From NCBI GenBank assembly GCA_027069855.1, contig JALXEF010000170.1, positions 1-32,975 on the forward strand: DNA of 32,975 nt. Reading direction: 5' to 3'. This DNA is from Caldifarciminota bacterium. GTDB lineage: Bacteria; Hydrothermota; Hydrothermia; WGAB01. The position numbers and the translations under genes are program-made. Below, piece after piece: positions 13,754-23,278 of this stretch (within the stretch, counting starts at the first letter, position 1; each line of letters opens with the position of its first letter). The notes beneath the pieces are model-generated. The model ran no database searches. It had not been told where the DNA came from and worked only from the letters and a program-made list of their open reading frames with translations.

Positions 13754-14512
13754 CTACGGCAGCGTGCGGGTGATGACCTTTCCGGCTTCCAGCAAAGGCA
13801 CGATCAAGCGCCGGTGCAGGGTGTCCACGCCCAGGTCGGCAGGGGTCCGAAGGTCTTCGGCGATCACCCGCTCCTCGCGCTCCGGGGCCCAGAGCACAAT
13901 GGTGCCGGACCGGTACCCGCTCACCACGAAGTCGCCGTTTTTGCAGCGGCCCAGGCCGTCGCCGCCGGCCACGAACCGGAATTCATGGAGCAGTTGAGGA
14001 TCCTGCATGTCCACCGAGCGATACAGCCGGGCCGGTGTGGTGAAGGTGATCACATACAGGGTGTCGCCCTCCACCCAGAGGCCGTTGGGATGGGGCACGG
14101 AGATCCAGCGCAGCACCTTGCCTTCGGCATCCAGTTCGTACACGCGACCGGCCTGGGTATCCGACACATACACACGGCCGTCCGGCGTGGCGGCCACATC
14201 GTTGAGAAATTGGGGCGGCTCGGGAAAGGCCCGGGGTCCGGCGAACAGGCGGACGGTGCCCTCCTGGAGCGACACCCATTGCAGCCGGTCCACATCGGCC
14301 ACCACCACGCCGTCGCGGAGGGCTGCCATGCCCTTGGGATCCCGAAGCCCACGGGCGAACACCCGGGGTTCCTTTTCCTCCTGCCACTGCCAGATCACGC
14401 CGTCGGCCTTCTGGAAGGCCCCGATATCCGAGATCAGCACCTGGTTGTCCAGCACCAGGGCGCTTTCCGGGTGCACAAAGGCCCACAGCAGAAAAAAGCC
14501 TGCCAGGCTCAT
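13754..14512 (-). CDS. secreted SMP-30/NHL-type beta-propeller protein
   Basis: A 252-residue protein with a short N-terminal hydrophobic signal (MSLAGFFLLWAFVHPESA) followed by repeated propeller blades: VLISDIGAF, PKGMAALRDGVVVADVDR, LNDVAATPDGRVYVSDTQAGRVYELD, PNGLWVEGDTLYVITF and TPADLGVDTLHRRLIVPLL. The pattern resembles six-bladed SMP-30/gluconolactonase or NHL propellers. Some members hydrolyse lactones or esters using a divalent metal; others only bind. The ATG at 14512 is preferred over the GTG at 14521 because GAGGAGGTGA sits correctly before the ATG and overlaps the GTG. It lies 24 bases after pgsB in the polyglutamate operon, so a periplasmic role with the polymer is a reasonable inference. 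No enzymatic activity can be assigned. Confidence 0.82.
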   Translation of the reverse strand: MSLAGFFLLWAFVHPESALVLDNQVLISDIGAFQKADGVIWQWQEEKEPRVFARGLRDPKGMAALRDGVVVADVDRLQWVSLQEGTVRLFAGPRAFPEPPQFLNDVAATPDGRVYVSDTQAGRVYELDAEGKVLRWISVPHPNGLWVEGDTLYVITFTTPARLYRSVDMQDPQLLHEFRFVAGGDGLGRCKNGDFVVSGYRSGTIVLWAPEREERVIAEDLRTPADLGVDTLHRRLIVPLLEAGKVITRTLP

Positions 14513-14536
14513 GATGCTCACCTCCTCGGGGAAATT

Positions 14537-15712
14537 TTACGGGTGGAGCGCCTGGAGCCGATCCACGATTTCCTGGCCCAGGCCCACGATGTTGCCCATG
14601 GTGACCACCAGGAGTTCGCGGGCCGGCAGGCTCAGGAGGGCCTGCACCACCCGATCGGCCGGTTGACCCTCCAGGTTCCGGATCCGGTCGGCGGGCACGC
14701 CGTGCCGCCGGAGGGCGGCGGCCACCGGATGCACCACGAACCCGGCCAGAAGGTACCGGTCGGCCACGAGATCGCGGCCCAACAGCCGGGCGAAGGCCTC
14801 GGTGCGTTGCGGCCGGTCTTTGCGCGCCACGAAGAGGGCCACGGTGGCCACCCCGGGGTGCCGGGCCACCACATTCTGCCAGATCAGCCGGGTGGATTCG
14901 GGGTCGTTGGCGGCGAAGGCGTTGTAAACCCACAGGGTTTTATCGGGCAGGGCGATGCGGAACCGCCGCAGGGCGCCGGGGTCCGGGGGCGCCTGCCACA
15001 TCCCCTTCAGGGCCTGCTCGCGGCTCAGGCCGAAGTGCTGCGCCACGGCCAGGGCCAGGGCCACATTCTCGGCGTGTTCCACATAGGAAAAGCCGTCCAG
15101 GTCGCCGGGCTGCACCCACTCCTCGGGCCGAACCACCACCAGTCGGCTGCCCCGGCGCCGGGCTTCGGCCTCCAGAAGCCGGGTGAACCGCTGGTCGGCG
15201 GTGAACAGCACGCCGTTCCTTGGCGTGGTGAGCGCCAGGTGGCGTGCCACATGCGCGAGGGTGGGGCCCATGGTGTCCAGGTGGTCTTCCCGGATGTTCG
15301 TGATCACGCCCACGGTGGACTGCACGATGCGGTCTTCCAGCACCCGCAGGTACTCGGGCGTGATGGCCATGCATTCCAGCACCAGGATGTCGGCGCCGGC
15401 CTCTACGGCCCGTTGCACGATGCGGAGTTGCTCCAGGATGTTGGGCCGGCCCGCCCGGAACACCGGCACCTCGCGGCCGTCGGGGAACAGGAACCGGGGG
15501 GCGGTACCCGTGGTTTTAGCCGCCACCCGGTGGCCCGGCAACTGCCGGAGCGCCGCATAGATAAGCCGGGTCACCGAAGACTTGCCCCGGGTGCCGTTGA
15601 CATGGATGCGGTGGGGAATCCGGGATAGGTTCCGCCGGTGCCGGTGGTACCGGTACGCCTCCACCGCCAGGAAGGTGGCGGTAACGCCCAGCGAAACCTC
15701 CAGCAGGGGCAT
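14537..15712 (-). CDS. pgsB: poly-gamma-glutamate synthase subunit PgsB/CapB
   Basis: A 391-residue ATP-dependent amide ligase that joins glutamates through their gamma-carboxyls, nearly the same length as Bacillus PgsB (393). An N-terminal membrane segment (residues 1-20) is followed by the P-loop NGTRGKSSVTRLI of the Mur-ligase-like fold, KTTGTAPR, LVLECMAITPEY, and VGVITNIREDHLDTMGPTL. The C-terminal part carries NAFAANDPEST and VTMGNIVGLGQ. The ATG at 15712 is chosen because the family's first helix begins there; it follows the barrel gene by two bases. With pgsC it makes the membrane-bound synthase core. The folylpolyglutamate synthase and Mur ligase alternatives are excluded by the N-terminal membrane anchor and the neighbours. 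Confidence 0.94.
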   Translation of the reverse strand: MPLLEVSLGVTATFLAVEAYRYHRHRRNLSRIPHRIHVNGTRGKSSVTRLIYAALRQLPGHRVAAKTTGTAPRFLFPDGREVPVFRAGRPNILEQLRIVQRAVEAGADILVLECMAITPEYLRVLEDRIVQSTVGVITNIREDHLDTMGPTLAHVARHLALTTPRNGVLFTADQRFTRLLEAEARRRGSRLVVVRPEEWVQPGDLDGFSYVEHAENVALALAVAQHFGLSREQALKGMWQAPPDPGALRRFRIALPDKTLWVYNAFAANDPESTRLIWQNVVARHPGVATVALFVARKDRPQRTEAFARLLGRDLVADRYLLAGFVVHPVAAALRRHGVPADRIRNLEGQPADRVVQALLSLPARELLVVTMGNIVGLGQEIVDRLQALHP

Positions 15713-15714
15713 GG

Positions 15715-17478
15715 CTATCGGCGGAGCAGCCGCCAGGACCCGCTGAAACCCACGGTCCAGGCGTCGTAGTTCTTGAAGACCAGGGAGGTGGCCGAATCCG
15801 TGGTGTGCACGCGGCGGCCGCGATAGGCCACGAAGCCGAACACAGGCGGCCCGCCGGGAACCGGCCGCAGTACGGGCGCCTGGATCCGGAACCCGGCCTC
15901 CCGGTCCTCGCGGCCAAAGTGCAGAGCGTCGTCGGCCCGGTTCGTCAGGTAGTGTTTCCAGGTGAGGGAGGCCGAGGCCCTGAGGGCGGCCACCCGGAGC
16001 TCCAGCTGGCCGGTGACGAAGGCATAGCTGGCATCGGGCTCCCAGGGCTGTACCCGGGTTCGGTACACCCCGAGCCGAAGCCCCACGCCGTACCGGCGGC
16101 GCTTGCCCTCCAGCCGCAGGTGCCACCGCTGGCCGGAAACATAGGCGAAGGGTTCATCGTAGCGATACCCGGCCCAGCCCAGGCCCACGGTCCAGGAGCC
16201 CCTCCGCAGGGCACGGCGGCCCCAGACCTCGGCCGAAAGGGCCGAATACCTCAGGGGATCCGTGCGTTGCAGGCTGCGCCGATACACGGGCCGCACATAC
16301 ACGCCGGGCCGAAGGGCGAGGCGGAACCCCAGGGTGTGCCGCCGTTTCAAGCGGCGGCTGCCCTCCACGGCCACGGCGATCCGGTTCTTCACCCGGTTCC
16401 ACAGGTAGCCGTAGGCCGTGAGGGAGCCCGAGAGCCGGCCGCGGCGGCCCCGATGCGTGAGCGTGGCGCGGAGCCGAAGCCGCAGATCGGTGGGGTTCTG
16501 GACGTCGGGATACCGGTACCGGGCGTCGCCCGCGCGGATCCGGTCCAGGTCGTCGGGGGCGAAGGTAAAGGGATTGCTGAGGAAGGCCAGCTGGGTTTGC
16601 AGGCTTAAGGTGGTGCGGGCCCGGCGGGGCAGGCCCACGAGGAAGAGCGGCACATAGAGGCTCCCTCGGGGTGCGCCCAGGAGCCGTTCCCGCGGCGAGG
16701 TTCGGCGCGAACGGCGTTTTTTGGTCTTCGGCACCTCGCGGTAGAGTTTCACGAGGCCCCGGCCGCCGGTCACCTCCACCCGGTACCGGTGCTCGCCGGG
16801 CGGCACCTTCAGAAAGCGCTTACGGGGCCGGGTTACGCGGAGGCTGGTATCCTCCAGCACCCGGGCCCGGAGCGAGGGTTTCCAGCGGTCCTTCAAGCGG
16901 AAGATCACCGAATCGCCCTCCAGCACCCGGAACGCCACGGGCGTGTTTTGCAGCGCGCGGAAATAGAACCACACCCGGGCCGGGCCCTTCACCTGGAACT
17001 CCACGGGCCCGTCCGGCCGCACCCAGTAGTAGGTGGTGCGCTTGTCCTTCACCGCCAGGGTGGCCGGCAGGCCGCCGGTCAGGGGCACCACCCGCCGCAG
17101 TTCGGGCTTGCGCCATTCGTAGTAGCGGATCCGCACAGGCCGGTCGCTGGTAAGCCGGTACCGGCCCTTGGGCAGGTGGATCCGCACCTCCCGGCGCCGT
17201 TTCACCTGCCAGGTCTTCAGGGGTTTGCCGTTCCTGAGGAGCCGCACCCGGGCCGGGCCCCGCTTGCTGAGGTTCTCCAGCCGGAACTTCACGCTCTTGC
17301 TGCGCTTGAGGGTCCAGCGGGCCGGATGCTTCCTGCTCACCCTCAGGTACAGGTACCGCACGCTGTCGCGCACCACGATCTGGCGGCGCCCCTTCAGGGC
17401 GGCCGTTTTATGCACCCAGTAGGCGGGTGCGGGCACGGCGACGGCCAGAAGCAAAATCAGGGCAAGAATGCGCTTCAT
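15715..17478 (-). CDS. secreted, very basic protein with predicted outer-membrane beta-barrel, in the polyglutamate operon
   Basis: A 587-residue protein I cannot assign to a known family. Residues 1-19 are a signal peptide (ending PAPA-Y). Residues about 20-270 are short beta-strand-like repeats extraordinarily rich in Arg and Lys: residues 20-129 hold 37 Arg/Lys against 6 Asp/Glu. From about residue 285 to the end, alternating hydrophobic/polar strands with many aromatic residues (for example RLSGSLTAYGYLWNRV, WTVGLGWAGYRY, AWTVGFSGSWRLLRR) look like an outer-membrane beta-barrel, roughly 14-16 strands by eye. It overlaps the pgsW-like gene by four bases and pgsB follows two bases after, so it is made with the synthase. 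I infer it is the outer-membrane export or anchoring component, its basic part binding the polyanion. Periplasmic localisation only is the alternative. Confidence 0.75.
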   Translation of the reverse strand: MKRILALILLLAVAVPAPAYWVHKTAALKGRRQIVVRDSVRYLYLRVSRKHPARWTLKRSKSVKFRLENLSKRGPARVRLLRNGKPLKTWQVKRRREVRIHLPKGRYRLTSDRPVRIRYYEWRKPELRRVVPLTGGLPATLAVKDKRTTYYWVRPDGPVEFQVKGPARVWFYFRALQNTPVAFRVLEGDSVIFRLKDRWKPSLRARVLEDTSLRVTRPRKRFLKVPPGEHRYRVEVTGGRGLVKLYREVPKTKKRRSRRTSPRERLLGAPRGSLYVPLFLVGLPRRARTTLSLQTQLAFLSNPFTFAPDDLDRIRAGDARYRYPDVQNPTDLRLRLRATLTHRGRRGRLSGSLTAYGYLWNRVKNRIAVAVEGSRRLKRRHTLGFRLALRPGVYVRPVYRRSLQRTDPLRYSALSAEVWGRRALRRGSWTVGLGWAGYRYDEPFAYVSGQRWHLRLEGKRRRYGVGLRLGVYRTRVQPWEPDASYAFVTGQLELRVAALRASASLTWKHYLTNRADDALHFGREDREAGFRIQAPVLRPVPGGPPVFGFVAYRGRRVHTTDSATSLVFKNYDAWTVGFSGSWRLLRR

Positions 17479-18599
17479 ACGGTGTCCTCCGGAGGTTCCT
17501 CGGGCCGGCGCAGGATCCGGCCCACCAGGTCATAGTGGGGCAGAAGCCAGAGCAACAGGGCGTTCACCAGAAGCAGCAGCACGATGACGCCCACCGAATA
17601 CCGCGGCTCCCAGAACAGGGGGCCGATGCCGGGCTCAGGCGTGACCGCCGGCGCCACGGCCAGGCCGTACCGCCGGGCGAGCCGCACGATCTCCAGCAGG
17701 TGTACCACCGGCACCCCCTGCTCCAAAAACCGATACACAACCCCCTGCACCGGCAACCCCTTGAGGAACACCCGTTCCTCGGGCCGGTTCAGACCGGGCC
17801 GGAGCAGGTAGCCCGCCTCGGTGGTGCCCAAACTGGCCACGCCGCCGCCGATGTTCACATAGGCCCGGATGGGGCGGCCCGCTGCGGCCTCCCGGTACCG
17901 CTGCATCCGGAGTTCAATGCTTTTGGCCAGGGGCAGCACATGGATTTTGGGGATGCCGTTGCGGGTGATGGCCGAATCCAGCAGCGCCCGGCCCTCGGGC
18001 GAAAGACCGCGGCCCACATCGTCGGCCCCGCCGTAGGAGGCGGCGATGGACACCGCCGGGATGAGGCCGACCTGGTAGAGTTCGTGTTCCATGTCCAGCC
18101 AGGTCCAGGTGGGCCGGTTGGCGCCCCAGCTGGAGGCGCCCACCGAGGTGATCACGAGGGGCCGGGCCCCGAGCGCCTGGATCGCCATCAGCGTGGCCAC
18201 ATTCAGGGCCGGGAACGATCCGGTCATGCCCACGGCCACGGCGTCGCCCCGGCGCACGCCGGCCTCGTGCAGGAACTGCACCACGAGGGCCGCAAAGTTG
18301 GGGTTGATGCTGGTGAGTTTGGCCGTGAGGTTGCCGGAACTCGTGGTGATCGGCGAGTTTTCCAGGCCGATGAGGCCGGTTTGGGCCGGATCGTTCACCG
18401 GGTCGATCTCAAAGCCATGGGCCAGGAACTGCTGCTTGAGGAAGGCGAAGGCCCGGGCCGTTTCGCGGGCGGCCTGGAGCTTGACCTCAAAAAGCGGCGC
18501 CCGGGTTTCGTGGAGCGAGGCCTCGGCCGCCACCAGGCTCACCAGGGCCACGAGCGCCAGAAATACCATGTCGCGGAGTTGCAGGGCCCGCCGTCTCAT
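17475..18599 (-). CDS. poly-gamma-glutamate system protein, PgsW-like
   Basis: A 374-residue protein with a membrane helix at residues 10-27 and another near the C terminus (VGVIVLLLLVNALLLWLLP, about 338-357), leaving a large extracytoplasmic domain. The central part contains ENSPITTSSGNLTAKLTSINPNF, GDAVAVGMTGSFPALNVA, ITSVGASSWGANRP and YVNIGGGVASLGT. I recognise this as the protein family found with pgsB and pgsC in diderm poly-gamma-glutamate loci (PgsW-type). Its biochemical role is unknown. The conserved Ser/Thr/Gly/Asn stretches and glycine-rich loops resemble a ligand- or nucleotide-binding fold, but no catalytic assignment is safe. It overlaps pgsC upstream and the barrel gene downstream by ATGA, so the three are coupled. 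Confidence 0.85.
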   Translation of the reverse strand: MRRRALQLRDMVFLALVALVSLVAAEASLHETRAPLFEVKLQAARETARAFAFLKQQFLAHGFEIDPVNDPAQTGLIGLENSPITTSSGNLTAKLTSINPNFAALVVQFLHEAGVRRGDAVAVGMTGSFPALNVATLMAIQALGARPLVITSVGASSWGANRPTWTWLDMEHELYQVGLIPAVSIAASYGGADDVGRGLSPEGRALLDSAITRNGIPKIHVLPLAKSIELRMQRYREAAAGRPIRAYVNIGGGVASLGTTEAGYLLRPGLNRPEERVFLKGLPVQGVVYRFLEQGVPVVHLLEIVRLARRYGLAVAPAVTPEPGIGPLFWEPRYSVGVIVLLLLVNALLLWLLPHYDLVGRILRRPEEPPEDTV

Positions 18600-19048
18600 A
18601 GCACCGGTGCCCCTCCGTGGATCAGGATCAAAAGGAGCCGGATCAATACCGTGACCACCAGCATCATGCTCAGGGTGGCCCGCACCCCCTGCTTGTCCAT
18701 CCAGTAGGCCATGAGCCCGGGGATGATGAACCCAAAGGCCCGCACCGCCAACACCATGTCGCCCACGGGCGTTTGCGCCAGTACCTGGGAGGCCTGGGAA
18801 AAGAAGAAGCCGATGACCACGGCCAGGAAGAGCCGGCGCCGGCCGTACACCAGCACATAGCGGGATACCAGTTTCAAAAGGCCCAGGGTGAGAAAGGCGG
18901 CGAGCAGGGTGCCGAGCAAAAGGTCCCAGCGGGTGAGGATCAGGGCGATGTACCCGGGCACCACCAGGCCGCCGGCCACATAGCCCAGCACCTCGGAAAG
19001 GTACAGGGAGAGCAGAAGGCCGAGGGCAATGGATTCCGCCAGGATCAT
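18596..19048 (-). CDS. pgsC: poly-gamma-glutamate synthase subunit PgsC/CapC
   Basis: A 150-residue integral membrane protein, the same size as Bacillus PgsC (149). It has four to five hydrophobic helices; the first contains the characteristic LGLLLSLYLSEVLGYVAGGLVVPGYIAL-type signature (residues about 8-36), followed by FLAVVIGFFFSQA, RAFGFIIPGLMAYWMDKQGV and a C-terminal helix. With PgsB it forms the catalytic membrane complex. The ATG at 19048 is preferred to the TTG at 19057, which lies inside the -10 box. It is the first gene of the operon pgsC, pgsW-like, barrel, pgsB, propeller, rtcA. Confidence 0.93.
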   Translation of the reverse strand: MILAESIALGLLLSLYLSEVLGYVAGGLVVPGYIALILTRWDLLLGTLLAAFLTLGLLKLVSRYVLVYGRRRLFLAVVIGFFFSQASQVLAQTPVGDMVLAVRAFGFIIPGLMAYWMDKQGVRATLSMMLVVTVLIRLLLILIHGGAPVL

Positions 19049-21661: not shown

Positions 21662-23278
21662 ATGGATTCTTCGCGCCGTCACAACATTGGGTTTCTTGAA
21701 GCGGTCAGCATCGGCATCGGGGGCATGATCGGCGGCGGCATCTTCGCCGTGCTGGGCCTCAGCGTGCAGATTTCCCGGGGTGCCGCTCCGCTGGCGTTTC
21801 TGCTGGCCGGGCTGGTGGCCCTCAGCACAGCGTATGCCTACGCCAAACTCTCGGTTCGCTATCCCAGCGAGGGCGGCACCATTGAGTACCTGGTGCGGGC
21901 CTTCGGCCCCAACGGCTTTTCCGGCGGGCTGAACCTTCTCCTTTTGGTGAGTTACACCGTGATGATCGCCCTGTACGCCTACGCCTTCGGCAGCTATGGA
22001 GCGGCATTGCTGGGGAACAGCACCGTCTGGAAACACCTCCTGATGAGCGCCGTGGTGGTTTTGTTCATGGGCATCAACGCCCTGGGCGCCTATGTAAGCG
22101 GCAAAGCAGAGGACCTCATGGTGGCCTTCAAACTCCTGGTGCTGCTTCTCGTGGCCGGCGCCGGCCTGGCCTTTGTGCACTGGCAACGCCTGGCCCCCTC
22201 CAACTGGCCCGACATGACCAGCGTCGTCGCCGGAGGCATGCTCATTTTCCTGGCTTACGAGGGCTTTGAACTCATCGCCAACACCGCCCAGGATGTGGAA
22301 CGCCTGGAGGTGCTTCCCCGGGCCTTTTACACCGCCGTGCTTCTGGTTATCTCGGTGTATGTGCTGATCGCCGTGGTCACCGTGGGAACCCTGCCCTTGC
22401 ACCAGATCCTCCAGGAACGGGACTACGCCCTGGCTGCCGTAACCCGGCCCGTGTTGGGAGCCACAGGCTTTTGGCTCGTGAGCCTGGCGGCCCTGGTATC
22501 CACCAGTTCCGCCATCAACGCCACCCTCTACGGAACCGCCCGGGCCAGCTATATGGTGGCAAAATACGGCCAGTTGCCCCGGATCATGGAGCGTAAGGTG
22601 TGGAAGGACGCCGCCGAAGGACTGATTCTCATTGGCATACTCGCCCTGCTCCTCGCCAACTTCGCCAGCCTGGAAACCATCTCTACCGCCGGCAGCGGGG
22701 GCTTTTTGCTGGTGTTCTTTATGGTGAACCTGGCGGCCTTCCGCCTGCGGCGCGAAATCAAAGCCAGGAGCGGCATCGTGCTTGTAGGGATGTTCCTGAC
22801 CCTGATGGCCCTGGCGATCCTGCTGTTTCGGATGTACCGGCTGGCCCCGGAAGCCCTGGAAATTTTTGCCATGCTGGTGATCCTCTCCTTTGTTGCCGAA
22901 GGCCTGTATCGGCTCCGTACAGGACGGGAGCTCCGCCACTACCTGGACGACCGGCTGCGCCAGCGGGAGGAGAACCTACAAAACTGGGCCTCCTGGATTG
23001 ACCTGGTGCTCCGCCACATCTACCAGCGTTTCAAGGACGCAGAGGTGTACCTGGTGGGCAGCCTGGCCCGTCACGAAAAGGCCCCCACCCACGATGTGGA
23101 CCTTCTGGTCATTACGGAGCACCCTCCCAGCCCAAAGGAAGAACGCCAGGTGGCCAAGGAGCTCACCGAGGGACTCACCCGCCAGCACCCCGTGCATTTT
23201 CACTTTGCCTCTAAAGGGCAACGGGAGGCCGCGCTCCGTTGTGCCCGGGTATACCGGCGGCTTCAGCCTTCCTCCTGA
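21662..23278 (+). CDS. APC-family amino acid permease fused to a C-terminal nucleotidyltransferase domain
   Basis: A 538-residue single frame. Residues 1-415 are an APC-superfamily transporter with about 12 helices: the first has the family signature SIGIGGMIGGGIFAVLG, followed by YAKLSVRYPSEGGTIEYL and helix-6-like FLAYEGFELIANTAQD. It should move amino acids or related amines across the inner membrane. Residues about 420-538 are a soluble domain like minimal nucleotidyltransferases (NTP_transf_2): GSLARHEKAPTHDVDLLV, with GS at 466-467 and Asp478/Asp480. The third carboxylate expected on the later strand is not obvious (VHFHF at 511-515), so activity is uncertain. A short basic linker joins the halves. 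The fusion suggests transport controlled by nucleotide binding or nucleotidylation. Substrate unknown. The last part could be a regulatory domain only. Confidence 0.85.
   Translation: MDSSRRHNIGFLEAVSIGIGGMIGGGIFAVLGLSVQISRGAAPLAFLLAGLVALSTAYAYAKLSVRYPSEGGTIEYLVRAFGPNGFSGGLNLLLLVSYTVMIALYAYAFGSYGAALLGNSTVWKHLLMSAVVVLFMGINALGAYVSGKAEDLMVAFKLLVLLLVAGAGLAFVHWQRLAPSNWPDMTSVVAGGMLIFLAYEGFELIANTAQDVERLEVLPRAFYTAVLLVISVYVLIAVVTVGTLPLHQILQERDYALAAVTRPVLGATGFWLVSLAALVSTSSAINATLYGTARASYMVAKYGQLPRIMERKVWKDAAEGLILIGILALLLANFASLETISTAGSGGFLLVFFMVNLAAFRLRREIKARSGIVLVGMFLTLMALAILLFRMYRLAPEALEIFAMLVILSFVAEGLYRLRTGRELRHYLDDRLRQREENLQNWASWIDLVLRHIYQRFKDAEVYLVGSLARHEKAPTHDVDLLVITEHPPSPKEERQVAKELTEGLTRQHPVHFHFASKGQREAALRCARVYRRLQPSS

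Follow-up and report, generated by a model that had tools for sequence, protein, structure and literature searches.

By what route does poly-gamma-glutamate leave a cell enclosed by two membranes? The polyglutamate model of CapsuleFinder, as set out in the parts of that paper drawn on here, names CapA to CapE from an operon of the Gram-positive Bacillus anthracis; diderms are said there to need at least one further protein for crossing the outer membrane, and that passage lies outside the model (PMC5542703). We have analyzed a stretch of 32,975 nucleotides from a Caldifarciminota bacterium (contig JALXEF010000170.1; "the window" below), in which a gene for a 587-residue protein offers a concrete candidate for the missing polyglutamate exporter of double-membraned bacteria. 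The original prediction was attached to positions 16708-17478, i.e. residues 1-257 of this protein, and saw in their positive charge, placed ahead of a barrel, a feature suited to capturing the polymer. Several questions follow. Is there a barrel, and does it belong to a polyglutamate operon? How unusual is the charge; and is it shared by the relatives of the protein?

The Locus

The genes stand in the order pgsC, pgsW, the gene for the 587-residue protein and pgsB (Table 1), where pgsW is a name coined in this analysis for the gene matching TIGR04332. PgsB and PgsC both exceed the curated cut-offs of their NCBIfam equivalog models, which places them in a polyglutamate synthase operon. The genes are tightly packed: the stop codon of pgsW and the start codon of the gene after it overlap in an ATGA, and only 2 bases separate the stop of the gene for the 587-residue protein from pgsB. 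For pgsC, we used the ATG start at 19048; the longest open reading frame (ORF) reaches 19057. CapA/PgsA (PF09587), an accessory component in CapsuleFinder, had no match in the 2.14 Mb assembly, and the same search was positive in 7 of 14 control genomes. The closest named relatives by PgsW carry the labels candidate division WOR-3 or Hydrothermus, and Hydrothermus pacificus belongs to the phylum Caldifarciminota according to NCBI.

Two neighbors deserve mention. Immediately 3' of pgsB, on the same strand, an SMP-30/NHL-type beta-propeller is encoded at 13754-14521 (minus), possibly as a stand-in for the propeller of other pgs operons. At 21662-23278 (plus), the window encodes an unusual combination, an APC-type amino-acid permease carrying a nucleotidyltransferase domain at its C terminus.

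Table 1. Features of the operon and of the 587-residue protein (positions in the window)
Feature	Position	Strand	Basis
pgsC	18596..19048	-	TIGR04011, 103.1 bits (cut-off 96.45); Pfam CapC, 5.4e-28
pgsW, "poly-gamma-glutamate system protein"	17475..18599	-	TIGR04332, 1.9e-94
Candidate polyglutamate exporter, 587 aa, tandem beta-domain protein and barrel fused	15715..17478	-	
Signal peptide, residues 1-19, MKRILALILLLAVAVPAPA	17422..17478	-	sequence; helix 2-12 in model
Beta domain 1, residues 20-134, most basic part	17077..17421	-	AlphaFold2 strands; charge
Beta domain 2, residues 135-252	16723..17076	-	HMM match 109-249, 100.9 bits
Basic linker, residues 253-287	16618..16722	-	disordered 255-284, pLDDT under 50
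14-stranded barrel, residues 288-587	15718..16617	-	AlphaFold2 strands; CymA Z 22.5
pgsB	14537..15712	-	TIGR04012, 388.7 bits (cut-off 222.7)

Architecture of the 587-Residue Protein

Databases of known families say little about this protein: no Pfam or NCBIfam family matched it at E up to 1, and among the sequences of solved structures there was no match below E 0.52. A known domain identity was considered for the N-terminal part and rejected, as the Pfam matches of 44 split homologues (those in which domains and barrel are separate proteins) were weak, scattered and discordant, the commonest being AMPK1_CBM in 4 of the 44. Structure prediction is more informative. AlphaFold2, given 86 of 95 selected sequences as the alignment, produced a model with a mean pLDDT of 90.5. 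Its strands run from 21 to 134 and then from 138 to 249, which we read as two domains; the boundary at 134/135 is our reading of the strand list, and the cleavage site of the signal peptide was placed by eye. Domain 2 holds Arg174 within a GPxxLxVxxR motif, and the 45 residues separating the HMM-defined domain 2 from the barrel contain 13 Lys/Arg and 1 Asp/Glu. The remaining 14 strands, spanning 288 to 586, form a barrel whose closest solved folds are CymA (270 residues aligned, rmsd 3.4), OmpG (Z 19.4) and FadL (Z 15.8), followed by the polysaccharide secretin 4y25 at Z 13.2; AlgE gave a weak Foldseek match (E 5.2e-5).

Since the solved-fold matches left the N-terminal part uncovered, we folded a split homologue of 285 residues (L144) instead, using 44 of 50 domain-only sequences and obtaining a pLDDT of 92.4. 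The top neighbor of this model is a glucanotransferase module (Z 9.2), and next to it stands chain B of a cellulose synthase, which we take to be BcsB (Z 8.9; 110 residues aligned, 20% identity); entries named BcsB gave Z 7.4-7.7, and carbohydrate-binding modules of families CBM6/35/36/51 gave Z 7.4-8.2. We use "jelly-roll" as our own term for the fold common to the model and these neighbors. Z values of 8-9 are middling and would indicate a common arrangement, not a function; even so, the appearance of BcsB and carbohydrate-binding modules among the neighbors of the model suggests that the domains help to guide a polymer. In the models of both proteins, the N-terminal part has no helix of at least four residues outside the signal region.

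Where would these parts sit? The signal peptide, hydrophobic segments judged by eye and normal barrel topology presumably place the barrel in the outer membrane and the N-terminal part in the periplasm. A periplasmic domain ahead of a barrel, within a polyglutamate operon, was a central element of the original prediction, and the modelled strands, the CymA-like fold and the gene set of pgsC, pgsW and pgsB around the protein support it well.

Charge of the Domains and of the Barrel

Residues 20-129 had been described as containing 37 Arg/Lys and 6 Asp/Glu, and a recount gave identical numbers. The bias had been said to go on to about residue 270, and residues 20-270 do hold 71 Lys/Arg and 18 Asp/Glu; however, it does not stop there, as residues 295-587 (the end of the linker and the barrel) have 55 Lys/Arg and 22 Asp/Glu, which is basic though less so than the N-terminal part. 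The operon partners, in line with the prediction, are much less biased, with net charges of +4 over 153 residues for PgsC (longest ORF), +4 over 374 for PgsW and +14 over 391 for PgsB. For comparison, parts of 20 contigs together with the window, 164,785 bases out of 2.14 Mb, were put through crude GC3 gene finding, which yielded a sample of 96 ORFs. In this sample, the 587-residue protein has both the most basic 110-residue span (+31; next, +26) and the most basic 250-residue span (+54; next, +34).

What of the pore itself? The lumen side of each barrel strand was assigned by alternation, with the hydrophobic side outward, over 110 aligned barrel rows, some of them partial or duplicate. Among 99 positions of the 587-residue protein predicted in this way to face the lumen, 26 are Lys/Arg and 8 are Asp/Glu. 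Positions 396, 508 and 555 are Lys/Arg in 88-99% of aligned barrels, and 97% of the family have an acidic residue at 331 and 525. Summed over aligned positions, the predicted net lumen charge is +7 to +16 in eight of nine proteins of the fused type and +3 in the ninth; the 88 other barrel rows have a mean of +4, with 85% above zero. As far as sequence can tell, then, the lumen of the barrel would be net positive.

A Family that is Mostly Split

Iterated HMMs resolve the N-terminal region and the barrel into two separate families, and most of the relatives examined encode them separately. In most loci fetched from the phylum, two adjoining genes lie 3' of pgsW, the first of which encodes two tandem copies of one repeat, i.e. 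a tandem beta-sandwich (jelly-roll-like) protein, and the second a barrel. The domain family keeps close company with the pgs genes. Among 147 genomes of the phylum, 66 have both the domain family and TIGR04332, 4 have the domain family only, 4 have TIGR04332 only and 73 have neither (Fisher 1e-31, kinship ignored); the corresponding counts for PgsB above its cut-off are 65, 5, 4 and 73 (Fisher 3e-30, kinship likewise ignored). One genome, G026, has a domain/barrel pair and no TIGR04332 match. In three genomes of one family, in the same class (G006, G015 and G032; loci L071, L072, L077, L078, L079 and L080), the operon has come apart, with pgsW, pgsB and the domain/barrel pair spread over different contigs; in G006 and G015, pgsW comes next after a gene that, by eye, is gyrB-like.

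The association extends well beyond the phylum. In 80 named loci, the best of 395 PgsW loci in a species-level collection, a domain gene is present in 70, from 13 phyla as labelled, a domain-bearing ORF starts at most 400 bases past pgsW in 65, and a barrel is found in 58, several contigs ending early. The phylum labels come from MAG records, and some look wrong; L196 and L171, for example, are placed among other phyla in the PgsW tree. The domain gene was not recognized in the other 10 of these best 80 loci, namely all five Myxococcota, one Gemmatimonadota, one Verrucomicrobiota, two unassigned and one Caldifarciminota locus whose contig ends there; in 7 of the 10, inspection of the neighborhood by eye turned up no recognizable equivalent. 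All five loci labelled Cloacimonadota have domain and barrel genes 3' of pgsW, with some barrels cut by the contig end. A locus labelled Melioribacter, L185, likewise has a split operon with both genes. A 2026 study of Cloacimonadota described a matrix stained by a PGA-DAPI method and a three-gene CapB-CapC-CapA operon; "export" and "outer membrane" have no match in its main text (PMC13082233).

Fusions speak to where the domains act. Of the 80 named loci, 5 encode the domain pair and PgsW in one frame as a single protein, and 15 have at least one repeat joined to the barrel, 7 of these belonging to the Caldifarciminota clade studied here. Examples of PgsW with two repeats in frame are L125 (5938-7995), L137, L182, L195 and L196; PgsW and the repeats of L125 are separated by a third hydrophobic segment, which would tether the repeats to the inner membrane on its periplasmic side. 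As lineages differ in whether PgsW or the barrel is the fusion partner, the family should work between the two, which suggests that the domain pair bridges inner- and outer-membrane parts. Might the main task of the pair then be to connect PgsW with the barrel, with a charge that serves protein docking and leaves the polymer untouched? The two kinds of fusion would agree with this, as would the contact of BcsB CBD-1 with the TPR of BcsC in cellulose secretion, described in the sections of PMC11379886 used here. However, PgsW is not acidic overall, so there is no obvious charged partner, and the basic stretch exceeds, in our judgement, what a docking patch should need. We therefore regard a bridge that leaves the polymer alone as unlikely, and return to the reading in which the domains touch the polymer.

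A second set of neighbors raises a different possibility; could the barrel be part of a surface-attachment set akin to the type IX secretion attachment complex, together with a nearby C25 peptidase and beta-propeller? Homologues of an LVIVD propeller occur in 32, and the C25 peptidase in 26, of the 41 other loci of the phylum (within the stretches fetched), and a type IX secretion chain, 8gl6_F, is among the fold neighbors of the barrel (Z 13.8). Against this, none of the 15 fused loci fetched (8 genomes) has a propeller homologue and only one (L122) has a C25 peptidase; the constant partners are the pgs genes. A role in attachment is thus very unlikely for the barrel, and secretion is the reading that we carry forward. 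Both families do occur elsewhere in this genome (G000), which has seven C25 matches in frames of 1224-1626 residues, none on this contig. Examples beside non-fused pairs are L097 (8236-9207), L101 (1-2587) and other loci of L061-L120; the propeller protein is acidic with, by eye, a lipoprotein-like start, and the C25 protein is a gingipain-type peptidase. One may speculate that the two act on polyglutamate in the manner of a sortase or help to attach it.

How did the fused form arise? In a PgsW tree of 106 of 135 rows (identical, short or domain-match-less rows were dropped), the fused rows form one group (SH-aLRT 99), interrupted solely by G008. In that genome (L069, 4008-5602), the domain and barrel frames are broken apart within the linker, and the barrel has no signal. 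True re-splitting is unlikely, as the barrel frame opens inside the linker and its first start codon was found well inside the barrel; a frameshift or an assembly error is the likelier cause.

Charge across the Family

If charge were what the domains need in order to work, should it not be found wherever the domains are? In the eight distinct fused genomes of the tree, the N-terminal region carries +0.12 to +0.20 charges per residue, versus -0.02 to about +0.12 in the remaining 98 rows. The mean is +0.045 over 104 other loci (94 above zero, 8 below) and +0.027 over the 41 of the same phylum; contigs fetched twice are among the 104 other and the 15 fused loci, the latter coming from 8 distinct genomes, and a ninth fused gene (G010) enters the nine-protein counts and stands outside the tree and these locus counts. 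In 71 of 82 pairs from other loci, the domains exceed their own barrel in basicity. In other words, the domains are mildly basic as a rule, and strongly so in one fused Caldifarciminota (WOR-3) clade only. As that clade is one group in the tree, its common charge is probably the product of one evolutionary event. Strong basicity as an ancestral, family-wide trait is rejected by its weakness or absence outside the clade. The notion that fusion causes charge is also weakened; in eight other domain/barrel fusion loci, the fused repeats have -0.06 to +0.06 charges per residue.

Within the clade, the charge is maintained. The N-terminal regions of the nine fused proteins have net charges of +25 to +45, and their R/(K+R) ratio tracks GC content (rho 0.71, p 0.03). 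Among seven fused proteins (two of them near copies), 18 alignment columns are at least 85% Lys/Arg, versus 0.2 expected in shuffles and one such column for Asp/Glu; shared ancestry contributes to this number. In pairwise comparisons at 33% identity, Lys/Arg is kept in 54% of cases, Ile/Leu/Val/Met in 60% and Asp/Glu in 25%, with Lys-Arg exchanges making up 40% of the kept Lys/Arg pairs. Could such a bias nevertheless be a by-product, whether of the base composition or of neutral drift in a domain that evolves fast? The genome is rich in GC, and, relative to composition, Lys/Arg in the N-terminal region is kept no more than other residues, its ratio of 2.2 being the lowest of six classes (others, 2.5-5.3). 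Yet the clade also has basic members at 35-58% GC, with lysine supplying the charge in those of low GC; a composition artefact is rejected by the 35% GC member. Moreover, no other sampled gene of the genome attains the basic spans of this one, and the far better retention of Lys/Arg than of Asp/Glu also speaks against drift, so that we give the by-product explanation hardly any credence.

The residues involved tell a similar story of change within the clade. Outside it, the constant feature of the domain protein is one Arg per domain; at position 174, Arg is present in all nine fused proteins, and of the 219 other repeats not gapped at this position, 218 have Lys/Arg (215 Arg, 3 Lys) and one has His. 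In domain 2, 14 positions are Lys/Arg in at least 60% of fused proteins, and 12 of the 14 are only 10-39% Lys/Arg in other repeats. Positions 147, 162, 164, 190, 200 and 204 (78-100% Lys/Arg in fused proteins vs 10-23% in other repeats) look like basic gains of the fused clade. Conversely, positions 170, 201 and 219 are Lys/Arg in 80, 62 and 61% of other repeats versus 0, 2 and 2 of the nine fused proteins, position 170 being aromatic or His (Tyr, Trp, His) in all nine. With basic positions lost as well as gained, the charge has been rearranged, which is not a mere strengthening of a common patch. Positions 168, 170, 172 and 174 lie on one side of one strand (159-176), by sequence and by the strand in the model, and from the sequence pattern the pair of Lys/Arg170 and Arg174 may form a specific acid-binding spot in the wider family.

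All nine fused proteins have a linker with more basic than acidic residues, from 4 Lys/Arg and 2 Asp/Glu in 10 residues (G013, the weakest) up to 28 Lys/Arg and 4 Asp/Glu in 69, with G012 and G030 the strongest. In the latter two (L066 and L067), 18-19 Lys/Arg fall within about 21 residues, shortly ahead of the first barrel strand. A membrane-adjacent linker that is always basic is also what membrane-surface binding predicts; might the domains and linker simply anchor the protein to some other anionic part of the envelope, such as the lipid head groups of the inner leaflet of the outer membrane or cell-wall polymers, unrelated to polyglutamate? We think this quite unlikely, as the folded domains are also basic, at positions that are kept, and the domains track the pgs genes; contact with polyglutamate is again the reading that we prefer.

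A Possible Secretion Path

In the path that we envision, PgsB and PgsC would make the polymer at the inner membrane, where PgsW would also sit with its body in the periplasm; the two beta domains of the 587-residue protein would receive the chain in the periplasm, and the 14-stranded barrel would release it. In most lineages the domain pair would do so as a separate protein, and here it would be covalently tied to the barrel through a flexible basic linker. The domains and linker, having turned strongly positive, might then hold the polyanion and steer it into a barrel whose lumen is itself predicted to be net positive. We infer both the contact with the polymer and the direction of transport by this putative exporter.

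How much of this do we believe? That the 587-residue protein serves a poly-gamma-glutamate secretion system as its outer-membrane component, with its domains contacting the polymer, seems to us an even proposition. A shade more tentatively, we propose that pgsB, pgsC and pgsW with a tandem jelly-roll protein and a 14-stranded barrel may make up an undescribed envelope-spanning polyglutamate secretion machine in about a dozen double-membraned phyla, and that in the Caldifarciminota clade the head may have been fused to the barrel as an electrostatic funnel, including a flexible polycationic linker at the pore mouth. The idea that positive charge suits polymer capture is plausible for the fused clade, where basic positions are kept, but charge is not a conserved requirement. 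The original prediction had named homologues without conserved basic residues as evidence against it, and such homologues do in part exist; outside the clade the domains are near neutral or weakly basic, and most of the basic positions of domain 2 are not shared. The main doubt about the charge arises here, as these homologues presumably do the same job while nearly neutral. They also present an opportunity: a homologue series of low and high charge is natural material for asking what the charge does.

Comparison with Known Systems

The barrel's closest folds, CymA and OmpG, are likewise 14-stranded, yet they share only 7-9% identity with it. Neither is known to have N-terminal beta domains, and both serve other substrates. 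AlgE, which is not known to have basic N-terminal domains, has 18 strands versus the 14 of our model. Like the barrel of AlgE, the one described here would pass a polyanion; the pore of AlgE is electropositive (PMC4118822), and here the lumen charge is assigned from strand alternation only.

Poly-gamma-glutamate capsule operons (capBCA/pgsBCA) share PgsB and PgsC orthologues with this locus, as judged by the NCBIfam equivalog models, but CapA/PgsA had no match in this genome. Conversely, the barrel and tandem beta domains found here are unlisted in the CapsuleFinder polyglutamate model, as given in the portions of PMC5542703 cited above. Among the matches listed in a literature search that covered few subscription papers, with preprints outside it, no title concerned the barrel or the beta-domain family.

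Cellulose secretion combines periplasmic domains of the CBD/jelly-roll type with an outer-membrane barrel in BcsB and BcsC, as the 587-residue protein may do, going by the excerpts of PMC11379886 used here. The fold of the BcsB domain resembles the model of our split homologue, at the middling score given above; however, the flavodoxin-like domain that follows each CBD of BcsB is absent here, where the N-terminal parts are all-beta. The BcsC and PgaA exporters have periplasmic TPR helices and 16 strands, unlike the all-beta N-terminal region and 14 strands of this protein, and the synthase and polymer of cellulose secretion also differ. With strand number, periplasmic domains and synthase all different, the protein is a member of neither the AlgE nor the Bcs type; by analogy, though, its pieces would fit the exopolymer logic of alginate and cellulose, in which a synthase hands its product to a periplasmic guide and the guide to a barrel.
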